Assembly (NCBI RefSeq): GCF_001724815.1
Contig: NZ_MEDO01000016.1
Location: 1-59,296 of the forward strand
Length of the DNA stretch: 59,296 nucleotides
DNA from: Arenimonas sp. SCN 70-307
GTDB lineage: Bacteria; Pseudomonadota; Gammaproteobacteria; Xanthomonadales; Xanthomonadaceae
Direction: 5' to 3'
Below, piece after piece: positions 37,633-43,699 of the stretch. Within the stretch, counting starts at the first letter, position 1. Each line of letters opens with the position of its first letter. Position numbers and translations under genes: made by a program. The notes under the pieces are model-generated. The model was not told the origin of the DNA. It was given only the letters and a program-made list of their open reading frames with translations, and made no database searches.

Positions 37633-38934
37633 ATGCGCCGCTTGCTGCTTGTTTCCGCCCTCGCCGCCGCGCTCTGCGGCCCTGCCTTCGCCCAGGCGCC
37701 CGACGTCGAGGCCATGGCTTCGTCGGTCGATGCCAAGGTGCAGGCCTGGCGCCGCGACATCCACCAGAACCCGGAGCTGGGCAACCGCGAGGTGCGCACG
37801 GCCAAGCTGGTGGCCGAGCACCTGCGCGCCATCGGCCTGGAGGACGTGCGCACCGGCATCGCCACCACCGGCGTCACCGCCGTGCTTCGCGGCGGCAAAC
37901 CGGGTCCGCGCATCGCCCTGCGCGCCGACATGGACGCGCTGCCGGTCACCGAGCGTACCGGCCTGCCCTTCGCCTCGAAGGCCACGGGCGTGTTCAACGG
38001 CGAAACCGTGGGCGTGATGCACGCCTGCGGCCACGACGCCCACGTGGGCATCCTGATGGGCGTGGCCGAGGCGCTGGCCGCACGCAAGGACGAGCTCGCG
38101 GGCGAGGTGCTCTTCATCTTCCAGCCGGCCGAGGAAGGCCCGCCGGATGGCGAGGACGGCGGCGCGGAGGAAATGCTCAAGCAGGGCATCTTCGACGACT
38201 TCAGGCCCGAGGCGGTGTTCGGCCTGCACGTGTTCAGCACGCTCAACGCCGGCCAGGTGGGCTGGCGCAGCGGCCCGGCGATGGCGGCTTCCGACCGCTT
38301 CAACATCGTCATCAAGGGCCGGCAGACGCACGGCTCGCGCCCCTGGGGCGGCGTGGACCCGATCGTGGCCGCGGCCGACGTGATCGGCACCGCCCAGACC
38401 ATCGTCAGCCGGCGCCAGAACATCAGCAAGCAGCCGGTGGTGGTCACCTTCGGCGCCATCAAGGGCGGCGTGCGCTTCAACATCATCCCGGACGAGGTGG
38501 AGATGGTGGGCACCATCCGCACCTTCGACGAAGGCATGCGCCAGCAGGTGTTCGCCGACCTCAGGAACGTGGCCGAAAAGGTCGCCGCCGCCCACGGCGC
38601 CACCGCCATCGCCCAGGTGCCCGACACCAAGGGCAACCCGGTTACGGTGAACCACCCGGCGCTGACCGCGCGTTTGGTGCCCAGCCTCGAGAAGGCCCTC
38701 GGCGCGTCGAACGTGGTGGAAATGGACCTGAACATGGGCGCCGAGGACTTCAGCTACTACGCCCGCGAGGTGCCCGGCTTCTTCTTCTTCGTCGGCGCCA
38801 CCCCGCCCGGCCAGGACCCGCTCAAGGCCCCCTCCAACCACTCGCCGGAGTTCTTCCTCGACGAGCAGGCCCTCAAGGTCGGCACCCGCGCCATGCTCCA
38901 GGTCGCCCTCGACTACCTCCACGAGACCGACTGA
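37633..38934 (+). CDS. Exported M20-family amidohydrolase
   Basis: The protein has 433 residues with signal peptide MRRLLLVSALAAALCGPAFA. The M20D (hippuricase/IAA-amino acid hydrolase-like) pattern is clear: DIHQNPELGNRE, RADMDALPVTE, HACGHDAHVGILMG, FQPAEEGPPDGEDGG (metal Glu pair) and GAEDFSYYA. All metal ligands are present. It should cleave N-acyl amino acids or dipeptides in the periplasm. The gene is divergent from the MopE-like pair and is followed by the cobalamin riboswitch of nrdAB. Confidence 0.93.
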   Translation: MRRLLLVSALAAALCGPAFAQAPDVEAMASSVDAKVQAWRRDIHQNPELGNREVRTAKLVAEHLRAIGLEDVRTGIATTGVTAVLRGGKPGPRIALRADMDALPVTERTGLPFASKATGVFNGETVGVMHACGHDAHVGILMGVAEALAARKDELAGEVLFIFQPAEEGPPDGEDGGAEEMLKQGIFDDFRPEAVFGLHVFSTLNAGQVGWRSGPAMAASDRFNIVIKGRQTHGSRPWGGVDPIVAAADVIGTAQTIVSRRQNISKQPVVVTFGAIKGGVRFNIIPDEVEMVGTIRTFDEGMRQQVFADLRNVAEKVAAAHGATAIAQVPDTKGNPVTVNHPALTARLVPSLEKALGASNVVEMDLNMGAEDFSYYAREVPGFFFFVGATPPGQDPLKAPSNHSPEFFLDEQALKVGTRAMLQVALDYLHETD

Positions 38935-38983
38935 CCCTGTCCCCGGTTTGACCTGTGGGGGCGGGGCCCACTATCTTGGGCTC

Positions 38984-39191
38984 GTCGGTCCCGGGCGCCA
39001 CCAGCGCTTGGGTTAATAGGGAAGCCGGTGGGAATCCGGCACTGCCCCGCAGCGGTATGTGGAAACGACCGCCGTCATGAGCACTGGGAGTGTGGGTCGG
39101 GCCTGAAGGCCCGCCTGCAGACGCCTGGGAAGCGACGGCCAGTAGGGGAGGCGCCCGCGCCTCGCGTCCACGAGTCCGAAGACCTGCCGAC
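38984..39191 (+). promoter_or_regulatory. Cobalamin riboswitch upstream of nrdAB
   Basis: The P1 arms GTCGG (38984-38988) and CCGAC (39187-39191) close the element. Inside are the canonical blocks: TAATAGGGAAGCCGGTG then GAATCCGGCACTGCCCCGC (39014-39051), a CACTGGGA block near 39082, CTGGGAAGCG near 39125, and GAGTCCGAAGACCTGCC (39172-39188). Every conserved core block of the AdoCbl riboswitch is present and in order. The sole downstream genes are class Ia ribonucleotide reductase, so B12 binding is expected to reduce their expression. Confidence 0.95.
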
Positions 39192-39424
39192 AGCCGCGCG
39201 AATGCACGCCGCGCGGTGACCGGCCCAAGGGTCTCCGGGGGGAGACGGCGCCGGTGTCGTGGCGCCGCGTCCCGCCGGCTGCGACACCCGTTCTCCGTCC
39301 TCCCTGTCGACCCGACGCCCGCGGGGGCGTGGCCGCGATGGCGCGTATTGCGCCTTCGCCGCGTTCCCGCGCGCCGCCTTCCGAGGGAGGGGCGGCGACC
39401 GTGCGCAACGCACCGGAGAACGCC
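39192..39424 (+). promoter_or_regulatory. Leader between riboswitch and nrdA
   Basis: The 233-base leader holds the likely expression platform. A hairpin CCGCGCG/CGCGCGG (39194-39216) directly follows the aptamer but has no U-tract, so control may be by ribosome-site occlusion or Rho rather than intrinsic termination. The ribosome site GGAG (39415-39418) lies six bases before the nrdA ATG. Confidence 0.5.
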
Positions 39425-41806
39425 ATGAACCCTGCCAGCCCCGCCGTCGCCCCCGTCGAGGACGACGCGCCGCAATTCGTCCTCACCCCGCCCGCCACCG
39501 CGCTGGGCATGACCGTCACCAAACGCAACGGCCGGCGCGAGCCGGTGGACCTCAACAAGATCGTGCGCGCCGTGCAGCGCCACTGCGACGGCCTGCACGC
39601 CGTCGACCCGATGCGCGTGGCCACCCGCACCATTTCCGGCCTGTACGACGGCGCCAGCACCCGCGAGCTCGACGAACTCTCCATCCGCACCGCGGCCTTG
39701 CTCACCGCCGAGGAGCCCGAGTACGGGCGCCTCGCTGCACGTTTGCTGGCCGAATGCATCGGCAAGGAAGTGGCGGGCCAGGAAATCCACGCCTTCTCGC
39801 AGTCGGTGGCCCGTGGACACGAGCTGGGCCTGGTGGGCGACCGCCTGCTGGCCTTCGTGCAAGCCAATGCCCGCAAGCTCAACGATGCGCTCGATGCCTC
39901 GCTCGACCGTCGCTTCGACTACTTCGGCCTGCGTACGCTCTACGACCGCTACCTGCTTCGCCACCCCACCGCCCGCACCGTCATCGAAACCCCGCAGCAG
40001 TTCTTCCTGCGCATCGCCTGCGCCCTCAGCGAGGACGTTCCCGAGGCGCTGGCGCTGTACCGGCGCATGGCCAGCCTGGACTACCTGCCCAGCTCGCCGA
40101 CCCTGTTCAACGCCGGAACCACGCACGAGCAGCTTTCGAGCTGCTTCCTGCTCGATTCGCCGGAGGACACGCTCGAGTCGATCTACCGCAAATACGCCGA
40201 CGTGGCGATGCTGAGCAAATTCAGCGGCGGCATCGGCGTTGCATTCACCCGGGTGCGCTCGCGCGGCTCGCTGATCCGGAGCACCAACGGTCACTCGAAC
40301 GGCATCGTGCCCTGGCTCAAGACGCTCGACGCCTCGGTCGCGGCCGTCAACCAGGGCGGGAAAAGGAAAGGCGCCGCCTGCGTTTACCTCGAGCCCTGGC
40401 ATGCCGACGTTGAGGAATTCCTCGAGCTGCGCGACAACACCGGCGACGAAGCCCGGCGCACGCACAACCTCAACCTGGCGCACTGGATCCCGGACCTGTT
40501 CATGCGCCGGGTCGAGGCCGACGGGCCATGGTCGTTGTTCGACCCGAAGGCGGTGCCGCAGTTCACCGACCTGCACGGCAAGGCCTTCGAAGTCGCCTAC
40601 GAGCAGGCCGAAGCCGCCGGGCGGGCCGTGAAGACGATCCGCGCGCGCGACCTGTACGCGAAGATGATGCGCACGCTGGCCCAGACCGGCAACGGGTGGA
40701 TGACCTTCAAGGACAAGTCCAACCGTGCCAGCAACCAGACCGCGCGCCCGGGCAACGTGATCCACCTGTCGAACCTGTGCACCGAAATCCTCGAGGTAAC
40801 CTCCGACGACGAAACGGCGGTGTGCAACCTGGGTTCGATCAACCTCGGCCAGCACCTCGGCGAGGATGGGTTCGACTTCGGCAAGCTCGCCGAAACGGTG
40901 CGCCTGGCGGTCCGCCAGCTCGACCGGGTGATCGACCTGAACTACTACCCGATCGAAACCGCCCGCCGAGGCAACCTGCGCTGGCGGCCGGTGGGCCTGG
41001 GCTGCATGGGCCTGCAGGATGTCTTCTTCCGCCTGCGCCTGCCCTTCGATGCGCCCGAGGCGCGCGCGCTGTCGGCGCGCATCGCCGAGGAAATCTATTT
41101 CCACGCGCTCGAGGCCAGCTGCGAGCTGGCCCAGGCGCGTGGCCGGCACCCGAACTTCGACGAGACCCGCGCCGCAAATGGCGAGCTGCAGTTCGAGGCC
41201 TGGGGCGTGCAGCCGGCCGAGCCGGCGCGCTGGGACGCGCTGCGCCGACGCATCATGCAGCACGGGCTCCGCAATTCACTGCTGGTGGCCATTGCCCCCA
41301 CGGCCACGATCGCATCGATCGCCGGCTGCTACGAATGCATCGAGCCGCAGGTGAGCAACCTGTTCAAACGCGAAACCCTCTCCGGGGACTTCCTGCAGGT
41401 CAACCGGCACCTGGTGGCCGAGCTCAAGCAGCTGGGGCTGTGGACGCCGGAGATGCGCGACCGCATCAAGCTCGCCGAGGGCTCGGTGCAGGGCATTGCC
41501 GAGATACCGGCGACGCTGCGGGCGGTCTACCGCACGGTGTGGGAGGTCCCGATGCGCTCGCTGATCGACATGGCGGCCGACCGCGGCGCCTACATCGACC
41601 AGAGCCAGTCGCTGAACCTGTTCATGGAAAGCCCGAACATCGGCGCGCTGTCCTCCATGTACATGCACGCGTGGAAGCAGGGCCTGAAGACCACCTACTA
41701 CTTGCGCTCGCGCCCCGCCACCCGCATCGCCAAGACCACGGTCGAGGCGGCGGTGGCCGTCGCCTGCTCGCTCGAGAACCCCGAAACCTGCGAGGCCTGC
41801 CAGTGA
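39425..41806 (+). CDS. nrdA: Class Ia ribonucleoside-diphosphate reductase, alpha subunit
   Basis: The protein has 793 residues. An ATP-cone (about 29-115, TVTKRNGRREPVDLNKIVRAV) gives overall allosteric control by ATP/dATP. The barrel shows the redox Cys in SSCFLLD (near 239) and AVCNLGSINLG (near 467), and the radical Cys in LSNLCTEIL (near 450). The C-terminus ends in TCEACQ, the tail thiols that accept electrons from thioredoxin or glutaredoxin. It converts NDPs to dNDPs with NrdB. The ATG at 39425 is preferred for its GGAG site; earlier in-frame starts would run into the leader. It is under the cobalamin riboswitch. Confidence 0.96.
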   Translation: MNPASPAVAPVEDDAPQFVLTPPATALGMTVTKRNGRREPVDLNKIVRAVQRHCDGLHAVDPMRVATRTISGLYDGASTRELDELSIRTAALLTAEEPEYGRLAARLLAECIGKEVAGQEIHAFSQSVARGHELGLVGDRLLAFVQANARKLNDALDASLDRRFDYFGLRTLYDRYLLRHPTARTVIETPQQFFLRIACALSEDVPEALALYRRMASLDYLPSSPTLFNAGTTHEQLSSCFLLDSPEDTLESIYRKYADVAMLSKFSGGIGVAFTRVRSRGSLIRSTNGHSNGIVPWLKTLDASVAAVNQGGKRKGAACVYLEPWHADVEEFLELRDNTGDEARRTHNLNLAHWIPDLFMRRVEADGPWSLFDPKAVPQFTDLHGKAFEVAYEQAEAAGRAVKTIRARDLYAKMMRTLAQTGNGWMTFKDKSNRASNQTARPGNVIHLSNLCTEILEVTSDDETAVCNLGSINLGQHLGEDGFDFGKLAETVRLAVRQLDRVIDLNYYPIETARRGNLRWRPVGLGCMGLQDVFFRLRLPFDAPEARALSARIAEEIYFHALEASCELAQARGRHPNFDETRAANGELQFEAWGVQPAEPARWDALRRRIMQHGLRNSLLVAIAPTATIASIAGCYECIEPQVSNLFKRETLSGDFLQVNRHLVAELKQLGLWTPEMRDRIKLAEGSVQGIAEIPATLRAVYRTVWEVPMRSLIDMAADRGAYIDQSQSLNLFMESPNIGALSSMYMHAWKQGLKTTYYLRSRPATRIAKTTVEAAVAVACSLENPETCEACQ

Positions 41807-42813
41807 CCGCCCCCCGTTTGCTCGACCCCGGCTTCAACCTGACCCTGCGGCCGATGCGCTACCCGAGGTTCTACGAGATGTACCGCGACGCCATCCGCAA
41901 CACCTGGACGGTGGAGGAAGTGGACTTCTCGCTCGACACCAATGACCTCCACAACAAGCTCGGGCCGGCCGAGCGGCACCTGGTGGAGCGGCTGGTGGCT
42001 TTCTTCGCCACGGGCGACTCGATCGTGGCCAACAACCTGGTGCTCAACCTCTACCAGCACATCAACGCCCCCGAGGCGCGGCTGTTCCTGTCGCGCCAGC
42101 TGTACGAGGAGGCGCTGCACGTGCAGTTCTACCTCACCCTGCTCGATACCTACCTGCCGGATCCTTCCGCGCGCGCCAGGGCCTTCGCGGCGGTCGAGAA
42201 CATCCCCTCGATCCGCAAGAAGGCCGAGTTCTGCTTCCGCTGGATGGACAGCGTGCAGGAGCTGCAGCGGCTCGAGACCCCGGCGCAGCGACGCCGCTTC
42301 CTGCTCAACCTGGTGTGCTTCGCCGCCTGCATCGAGGGCCTCTTCTTCTTCGGCGCCTTCGCCTACGTGTACTACCTGCGCTCGCGAGGGCTGCTGCACG
42401 GGCTGGCGGGCGGCACCAACTGGGTGTTCCGCGATGAAAGCGGGCACATGGCCTTTGCCTTCGAGGTCATCCGCACGGTTCGCGAGGAGGAGCCCGGGCT
42501 GTTCGACGACGAACTCAAGGCCCAGGTGGTGAAGATGGTCGAGGAGGCCGTGGACTGCGAGCAAGCCTTCGCCGAGGACGTACTCAGCGGCGGCGTGGCC
42601 GGGCTGTCGACCCGGGACATGCGCCAGTACCTGGAATACGTGGCCGACCAGCGCCTCGCCCAGCTCGGCCTGCCCAGGCGCTTCGAGGCCCGCAACCCCT
42701 TCCCGTTCATGGACCTGCAGGACGTGCAGGAACTGGCCAACTTCTTCGAACGCCGGGTGTCGGCCTACCAGGTCGGCATCCAGGGCGACGTCCAGTTCGA
42801 CGCCGCCTTCTAG
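41803..42813 (+). CDS. nrdB: Class Ia ribonucleoside-diphosphate reductase, beta subunit
   Basis: The protein has 336 residues with a GTG start overlapping the nrdA stop (GTGA). The di-iron site is visible: Asp in EVDFSLD, Glu, His and radical Tyr in YEEALHVQFY (E-x2-H-x3-Y spacing, Tyr near 110), and later CIEGLFFFGAF and RDESGHMAFAF. The tyrosine is present, so this is a classic tyrosyl-radical, oxygen-dependent enzyme. A terminator is not obvious; a short GGGGACAGGGTC repeat piece follows the stop. Confidence 0.96.
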   Translation: MTAPRLLDPGFNLTLRPMRYPRFYEMYRDAIRNTWTVEEVDFSLDTNDLHNKLGPAERHLVERLVAFFATGDSIVANNLVLNLYQHINAPEARLFLSRQLYEEALHVQFYLTLLDTYLPDPSARARAFAAVENIPSIRKKAEFCFRWMDSVQELQRLETPAQRRRFLLNLVCFAACIEGLFFFGAFAYVYYLRSRGLLHGLAGGTNWVFRDESGHMAFAFEVIRTVREEEPGLFDDELKAQVVKMVEEAVDCEQAFAEDVLSGGVAGLSTRDMRQYLEYVADQRLAQLGLPRRFEARNPFPFMDLQDVQELANFFERRVSAYQVGIQGDVQFDAAF

Positions 42814-42871
42814 GGGGACAGGGTCGCTTTTAGTGTCCGTATCCCAGCGGGCGGGGGGTAAAATGGCCGGC

Positions 42872-43699
42872 ATGACGACCCCTGAAGCCAGCCTCCTCGG
42901 CAAACCCGTCCAGTACGGTGCCGAGTACGACCCGACCCTGCTGTTCCCGATTCCCCGCGCCCAGGCGCGGGCCGCGCTTGGCCTGGGCGAGGACCTGCCC
43001 TTCGTCGGCGTGGATTTCTGGAACGCCTATGAACTGAGCTGGCTCGACGGCCGCGGCAAGCCGCGCGTGGCGCTGGCCGAACTGCGGGTGCCGGCGGCCT
43101 CGCCGAACCTGGTCGAATCCAAGAGCCTCAAGCTCTACCTCGGCAGCTATGCCATGGCCCGCTTCACAGACACCGACGCGCTGCGCGCGCAGCTGGTGGC
43201 CGACCTCTCGGCCGCCGCCGGCGCGCCGGTCAGCGTGGTGCTCACCCCGGCCGGTTCGAGCAACGTGGCCCTGATCGAGAACCTCGAAGGCGACGTCATC
43301 GACGACCTGCCCATCGAGATCAGCCACTACGGCCCGCCGCGCCCCGAATTCCTGTCGTCCGACCCCGGGCTCAAGGCCGACGAGGTGCTGGTCTCGCACC
43401 TGCTCAAGTCCAACTGCCCGGTCACCGGCCAGCCCGACTGGGCCAGCGTGCAGGTGCGCTACGCCGGCCCGCGCATCGCCCGCGACGGGCTGCTGCGCTA
43501 CCTGGTCAGCTTCCGCCAGCACAGCGACTTCCACGAAAGCTGCGTCGAGCGCATCTTCATGGACATCCTGGGCCAGTGCGCGCCCACGCGCCTGGCGGTG
43601 TACGCTCGCTACACCCGGCGCGGCGGCCTGGACATCAACCCCTTCCGCGCCACCCCGGGCCTGCCCCTGCCGGGCAACCCGCGCACCAACCGCCAGTAG
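42872..43699 (+). CDS. queF: NADPH-dependent 7-cyano-7-deazaguanine reductase (long form)
   Basis: The protein has 275 residues and is the two-lobed (YqcD-like fused) form found in gammaproteobacteria. FVGVDFWNAYELSWLDGRGKP, ESKSLKLYLGSYAMARF, the catalytic-Cys segment SNCPVTGQPDW (near 182), and VERIFMDIL...YARYTRRGGLDINPF are diagnostic. It reduces preQ0 to preQ1 in queuosine synthesis. An ATG nine bases upstream (42863) has closer spacing to the G-rich ribosome site and is an equal alternative start. No preQ1 riboswitch is visible before it. Confidence 0.96.
   Translation: MTTPEASLLGKPVQYGAEYDPTLLFPIPRAQARAALGLGEDLPFVGVDFWNAYELSWLDGRGKPRVALAELRVPAASPNLVESKSLKLYLGSYAMARFTDTDALRAQLVADLSAAAGAPVSVVLTPAGSSNVALIENLEGDVIDDLPIEISHYGPPRPEFLSSDPGLKADEVLVSHLLKSNCPVTGQPDWASVQVRYAGPRIARDGLLRYLVSFRQHSDFHESCVERIFMDILGQCAPTRLAVYARYTRRGGLDINPFRATPGLPLPGNPRTNRQ

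Follow-up and report, generated by a model that had tools for sequence, protein, structure and literature searches.

The class I ribonucleotide reductase genes nrdAB of Arenimonas sp. SCN 70-307 are preceded by a complete cobalamin (vitamin B12) riboswitch, and we consider it very probable that this leader lowers the class I enzyme when adenosylcobalamin is plentiful and the class II enzyme NrdJ is able to take over, most likely with an output at the level of translation. The stretch of DNA analysed, referred to as the window, comprises 59,296 bases (contig NZ_MEDO01000016.1) and is one contig, C16, of a 35-contig assembly of 2,928,465 bases with a completeness of 99.98 %. Class I reductases require oxygen. 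In the proposed mechanism, plentiful adenosylcobalamin would cause the riboswitch to cut production of the oxygen-dependent, B12-free NrdAB, since the cell could then use the B12-dependent NrdJ. In the B12-bound state, a 9 nt stretch of the leader (39289–39297) would pair with the Shine–Dalgarno (SD) region of nrdA (39414–39422) and hide the ribosome site, and in the absence of B12 this pairing would open. The direction of control, with B12 as the off signal, is borrowed by analogy from a Streptomyces precedent, and the oxygen-linked part of the switch has as its sole basis the established need of class I enzymes for oxygen. The circuit is already known in kind from other bacteria and occurs widely in this family; the platform described here is a prediction from sequence. 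The principal features of the locus are as follows.

38969–39205, + strand: complete cobalamin riboswitch aptamer (RF00174; 89.4 bits, gathering score 31.5, model positions 1–189)
39289–39297, + strand: putative anti-SD element CGTTCTCCG, exact 9 nt complement of 39414–39422, with pairing that covaries in relatives
39414–39422, + strand: nrdA SD region CGGAGAACG, from sequence and the pairing test
39425–41806, + strand: nrdA, encoding the 793 aa large subunit of a class I ribonucleotide reductase, ATP-cone included (TIGR02506; PF02867, PF00317, PF03477)
41803–42813, + strand: nrdB, encoding the 336 aa small subunit of the class I enzyme from a GTG start (PF00268, 273.2 bits versus 33.6; start and motifs read from sequence)

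A complete aptamer ahead of nrdAB

An Rfam scan matched the nrdAB leader to RF00174 with an E-value of 8.2 × 10−21, and the alignment covers all 189 model positions, so that the whole aptamer is present, as an earlier note on this DNA had proposed. This was the sole Rfam match at gathering score in the window, and the same aptamer was recovered again in a search of the whole genome. The span of 38984–39424 given in the earlier note begins 15 bases inside the RF00174 match, whilst its end takes in the expression platform as far as the nrdA ATG at 39425. At the 3′ edge of the aptamer, the predicted fold contains one further element.

39193–39217, + strand: GC-rich hairpin of eight pairs with a CAC-bearing loop, candidate P13/L13

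The loop of this hairpin may correspond to L13, the kissing partner of the GGUG in L5. An L13 loop was parsable in just 8 of 28 riboswitches, too few for a comparison of L5–L13 covariation.

A class II reductase and B12 supply in the same genome

Searching the assembly for the reductase barrel domain returned two genes, the nrdA of the window and a second on another contig (C25:16995–18605). The latter is nrdJ, with a score of 543.7 bits against TIGR02504 (cut-off 399.95) in an open frame of 738 aa. An nrdJ elsewhere in the genome had been predicted beforehand, with a genome devoid of any class II reductase named as the contrary outcome; the prediction was borne out. Directly 3′ of nrdJ (L004:733–1245, − strand) lies a gene for a lysine/alanine-rich histone H1-like protein, which has a weak match to NF038053 (26.2 bits versus a cut-off of 80).

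The second cobalamin riboswitch of the genome (C3:130955–131138, 86.5 bits) lies ahead of a gene that, among curated models, is closest to TIGR01779, the TonB-dependent B12 receptor (416.5 bits, under the cut-off of 599.7). Additionally, an adenosyltransferase of PduO type was found in the assembly, in which neither CbiC nor a CobA/BtuR-type adenosyltransferase had a match. Judged from these marker families alone, the cell probably imports (scavenges) cobalamin and turns it into the cofactor of NrdJ, because a receptor-like gene stands under a riboswitch, a PduO-type adenosyltransferase is present and CbiC was not found. Such a scavenger would probably gain from sensing imported B12.

The riboswitch accompanies nrdJ across the family

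At least one RF00174 match was present in 194 of the 198 family genomes searched. Reductase matches were available for 74 genomes, and the 61 of these with a complete riboswitch list as well were tabulated. A riboswitch was counted if it shared the strand of the barrel domain and lay no more than 3 kb upstream of it, the nrdA class comprised matches of at least 500 bits, and NrdJ was assigned by score band. By these definitions, a riboswitch preceded 41 of 41 nrdA genes where nrdJ was present, and two of six where it was absent. The two nrdA genes with a riboswitch but no nrdJ belong to assemblies that are only 83 % and 87 % complete, whilst the four genomes without both (G017, G018, G044 and G053) represent four different genera and are 99–100 % complete; no RF00174 match was found at their nrdA loci even when Rfam was scanned permissively, at E-values of up to 1. 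The rule is valid in two nrdA lineages, scoring near 660 and near 535 bits. NrdJ assignments were checked with NCBIfam for the window genome, for the second NrdJ of G004 and for five of the named genomes described below. Reductase matches beyond the two score bands were left out of the table (G004, G007, G014, G023, G034 and G041): that of G004 is a second NrdJ, that of G034 is an E. coli-type NrdA and the others are fragment-like by their match spans. The logic of the earlier note, in which class I genes come under B12 where a class II enzyme is present, is thus reflected family-wide, with the riboswitch on nrdAB tracking nrdJ.

A further set was taken from 80 named nrdA loci, 51 of which were scanned for riboswitches. 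Two were dropped for cut contigs (L072, riboswitch present; L073, contig start 76 bases before the nrdA match), leaving 49 genomes that overlap with the 61-genome table (identical coordinates), and hence the two tables are not independent. The riboswitch lies upstream of nrdA in 43 of the 49 and is absent in six; every genome with an NrdJ in the 400–445-bit band carries it (35/35). Four Stenotrophomonas genomes (S. maltophilia twice, S. rhizophila and S. pavanii) have no nrdJ match and no riboswitch at their 660-type nrdA, and none was found at the other-lineage second nrdA of L124, the sole one of these scanned. Stenotrophomonas sp. ATCM1_4 has both nrdJ and the riboswitch. The riboswitch is also present in Archangium, Minicystis and an Acidobacteriaceae metagenome-assembled genome (MAG), in all of which a long NrdJ was confirmed, and it occurs together with further reductase matches of unassigned class in L081, L109 and L110.

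Several observations weigh against a strict coupling. Kinship among the genomes inflates the contingency statistic for the 61-genome counts (Fisher p = 8.4 × 10−5). Outside the 500-bit class, G034 (L122) combines an NrdJ-band match with an E. coli-type class Ia nrdA (NF006578) that has no riboswitch. Similarly, a confirmed long NrdJ occurs together with an nrdA without a riboswitch in Myxococcus qinghaiensis (L088) and in L091, whose record bears the label Comamonas sp. KCTC 72670. Lastly, in two MAGs (L095 and L096) the riboswitch is present and a second PF02867 reductase was not found.

Other properties of these genomes were recorded alongside. In 9 of the 61 family genomes (G002, G004, G013, G025, G033, G036, G049, G054 and G056), NrdJ is the only type among the PF02867 reductases; judged from this reductase family, with class III outside the search, these bacteria may be wholly reliant on B12 for making DNA. 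The NrdJ barrel match extends over ∼2,760 nt instead of 1,640 nt, in a single frame of 1,100–1,191 aa, in G020, G027, G031, G036, G047, G056, G059 and G065, and the same long match occurs in G199, G219, G221, G239 and G243 (G027 and G199 are apparently one genome). These long nrdJ frames appear to contain an insertion of some 370 aa that resembles an intein. Beside the riboswitch of nrdA, Oleiagrimonas (L089:1966–2262, − strand) and a Lysobacteraceae MAG (L096:2114–2355, − strand) each have another, divergent one for cobalamin.

An anti-SD pairing as the predicted expression platform

The earlier note had described a platform lacking an intrinsic terminator, and a scan of 38700–39500 likewise gave no terminator-like sites. 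The anti-SD arm is 116 nt away from its target, and in a fold of the post-aptamer stretch alone, without aptamer or ligand, the two pair with a mean probability of 0.74. In relatives, the counterpart of the anti-SD stretch comes after a conserved GCGACRCC box. The pairing was assessed by comparing the duplex energy formed with the ribosome site of the same species to that formed with the sites of swapped species. A first set of 69 distinct leaders was reduced to 37 above 76.45 % nrdA identity, a limit picked after the box had been found nearly absent below that identity, and then to 31 upon removal of three without the box and three without a start with a recognisable ribosome site. In these 31 leaders, two successive positions gave z of −4.9 and −3.7, compared with −2.1 to +2.4 at the remaining fourteen.

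For a second set, 34 regions yielded 19 leaders with all landmarks (11 lacked the box, three the aptamer-end motif and one the start), of which 12 passed a filter that was also imposed on the first set (nrdA lineage 1, start at 180–325 and box at 95–165). At offsets 0 to +10, z for the 12 filtered new leaders lay between −2.0 and −3.6, yet it was −0.8 at −5. For the 42 filtered leaders overall, true pairs were at −11.7 kcal/mol versus −9.7 kcal/mol for swapped ones, with a z of −6.1 at offset 0, where the signal peaks; none of 10,000 permutations was as low as the true pairing energy, and 30 leaders less than 80 % alike gave a z of −6.0. A separate signal at −84 from the start (z −3.9), met in the scan of upstream windows mentioned below, was set aside, as it overlaps the anti-SD itself in shorter leaders.

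Three results count on the other side. In the unfiltered second set of 19 leaders the signal was slight, with z of −0.6 and −1.8 at the two positions where the first set had been strongest; the filter was fixed after this weak result was known; and a scan of upstream windows for a covarying partner turned up nothing that could release the anti-SD when B12 is absent (best z −1.4). Because the leader has no terminator and its anti-SD/SD pairing covaries, the output of the riboswitch is nevertheless most likely sequestration of the ribosome site, i.e. translational control.

Alternative explanations

The best-placed alternative is the same circuit acting on transcription: B12 might expose a Rho site, or favour early termination or mRNA decay, in the ∼220 nt that separate the aptamer from nrdA; pairing of the SD would then be incidental or secondary. 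Precedent points this way, as the title of Borovok et al. (2006), found in the reference lists of PMC5962746 and PMC4991794, speaks of transcriptional control in Streptomyces, and in Propionibacterium (Cutibacterium) acnes much of nrdAB transcription appears to stop ahead of the first gene (PMC3848588). As this alternative gives the covarying SD complement no role, and as the leader has no intrinsic terminator, we regard it as less likely than translational control.

Less probable still is a B12-controlled unit that includes queF, tying B12 to the making of queuosine as well as of deoxyribonucleoside triphosphates (dNTPs). This gene lies on the same strand as nrdB, with an ATG at 42872, 58 nt past the nrdB stop, and scores over the cut-off of TIGR03138. 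The earlier note held nrdAB to be the only downstream genes; they do follow the riboswitch directly, but queF is near enough that it could be read through. It is also close behind nrdB in the nearest named relative, L037. Against such a unit, queF is found downstream of nrdB in just 3 of the 80 named nrdA loci (flanks of up to 3 kb, some shorter), and in two of these it is more than 400 bases off.

Finally, it is very improbable that the riboswitch has lost its hold on nrdAB in this genome and persists as a relic, whether degenerate or simply passed down from an ancestor: its score is under the 117.5 bits of genus mate G042 and its L5 reads GGTGGGAATCC (3 of 28 parsed riboswitches) instead of the commonest GGTGCGAATCC (10 of 28), but it matches the full model at a score near that of the other riboswitch of the genome, its exact 9 nt anti-SD pairing is intact, and four well-assembled genomes without nrdJ are also without the riboswitch, which is therefore seemingly not kept idly.

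Promoter and NrdR boxes

At the upstream edge of the riboswitch, a putative promoter was identified.

38948–38977, + strand: putative sigma-70-type promoter TTGACC-18-TATCTT, from a promoter scan and the recurrence of TTGAC in relatives

This was the one promoter-like site in 38700–39500 (shuffle mean 0.0), and in 25 of 26 relatives examined a TTGAC stands a short way before the aptamer. The surrounding sequence was also scored against the NrdR box consensus, in 26 of the 43 riboswitch-bearing named relatives and with spacings of 30–33 bp allowed. All 26 possess paired NrdR-like boxes, 32–33 bp apart around the promoter and with 6–12 summed mismatches. With a score of 14 (8 + 6 mismatches), the window does not qualify as a two-box locus; of 1,000 segments drawn at random from the window, a single one equalled this score and none had fewer mismatches. 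Genus mates L031, L008 and L007 score 17, 13 and 11, respectively. On these scores the outer box is eroded in the window, L031 and L008, and because L007 scores 11 this erosion does not cover the whole genus. An nrdR gene was found in the genome, and the nrdJ leader contains one NrdR-like box with four mismatches.

A tentative extension of these findings is that nrdAB in this family may be governed at two levels, by NrdR at the promoter and by a translational B12 riboswitch acting through the long-range anti-SD, and that decay of the outer box in the sub-lineage of the window may have made B12 the chief cue there. If true, B12 would largely decide, in this sub-lineage, whether dNTPs are made by the oxygen-using or by the B12-using route.

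nrdA, nrdB and the surrounding sequence

The nrdA product contains ATP-cone, all-alpha and barrel domains and scored 719 bits against TIGR02506 (cut-off 341.05). The GTG start of nrdB overlaps the nrdA stop codon, and its product has, by motif, the diiron ligands and the radical tyrosine. Both genes fall below the cut-offs of narrower NCBIfam equivalogs (NrdA NF005544, 787.4 versus 965; NrdB NF005550, 260.5 versus 309); by curated models and motifs they nonetheless classify as a class I reductase. The closest nrdA among named records, at 91 % identity, is that of a metagenome-assembled Arenimonas sp. (L037), and the next matches are mostly from Xanthomonadaceae/Lysobacteraceae. As alternative nrdA starts, an in-frame GTG at 39401 and a longer frame from 39254 were rejected. 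The ATG at 39425 with its CGGAGAACG ribosome site was kept because the spacing from the GTG to the later start is, by eye, not a multiple of three in several relatives. Upstream, a gene for an M20-type amidohydrolase ends at 38934 (TIGR01891, over cut-off).

The 12-mer GGGGACAGGGTC has exactly two copies in the 2.93 Mb assembly, at 38933–38944 (− strand) and 42814–42825 (+ strand). They form an inverted pair that brackets the riboswitch and nrdAB, each at a stop codon, and the first occupies the position of the outer NrdR box of relatives. No exact copy was found in the L037 locus. With one mismatch allowed, 19 near-copies were found versus 18 for a reversed-pattern control, and by a rough estimate chance alone would often place inverted 12-mer pairs no more than 4 kb apart in a window of this size; no meaning was assigned to them.

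Comparison with known systems

The principle of this circuit is already in print for other bacteria. What the present analysis adds is to turn a single sighting into a testable family-wide rule, in which class I nrdAB retains the riboswitch for the most part in genomes where a B12-dependent enzyme can substitute, and lacks it in well-assembled family genomes without such an enzyme. Furthermore, the two 9-base stretches provide a concrete, checkable switch element in a terminator-less leader. No description of riboswitch-controlled nrdAB in Xanthomonadaceae was met in the accessible literature, including PMC8123684 and PMC9600381; subscription papers lie mostly beyond it and we make no claim of priority.

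Pseudomonas aeruginosa is, like the organism studied here, a gammaproteobacterium with class I and class II enzymes, but the effect of B12 on its nrd genes is described as riboswitch-independent (PMC5962746). The B12-elements of delta-proteobacterial nrdDG follow the same reasoning, with B12 repressing a B12-independent reductase given NrdJ (PMC545781); the genes concerned are class III nrdDG there and class I nrdAB here. In P. acnes, riboswitches precede nrdAB and nrdDG; as here, nrdAB combines a cobalamin riboswitch with an NrdR box and the nrdJ operon has no riboswitch (PMC3848588). Apart from the apparent early end of transcription mentioned above, P. acnes differs in its single NrdR box, which overlaps the nrdAB promoter (PMC3848588), whereas the boxes are paired in relatives of the window and the outer one is eroded in the window itself.

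For nrdABS of Streptomyces coelicolor, a B12 riboswitch has been reported (Borovok et al., 2006, referred to in both PMC4991794 and PMC5962746). In both organisms a cobalamin riboswitch stands ahead of class I nrdAB and a class II nrdJ is also encoded. The third Streptomyces gene is nrdS, whereas the gene after nrdB here is queF. Moreover, control is reported to be transcriptional in S. coelicolor, whilst in Arenimonas the lack of a terminator and the covarying anti-SD make translation the more likely level at which B12 would act.

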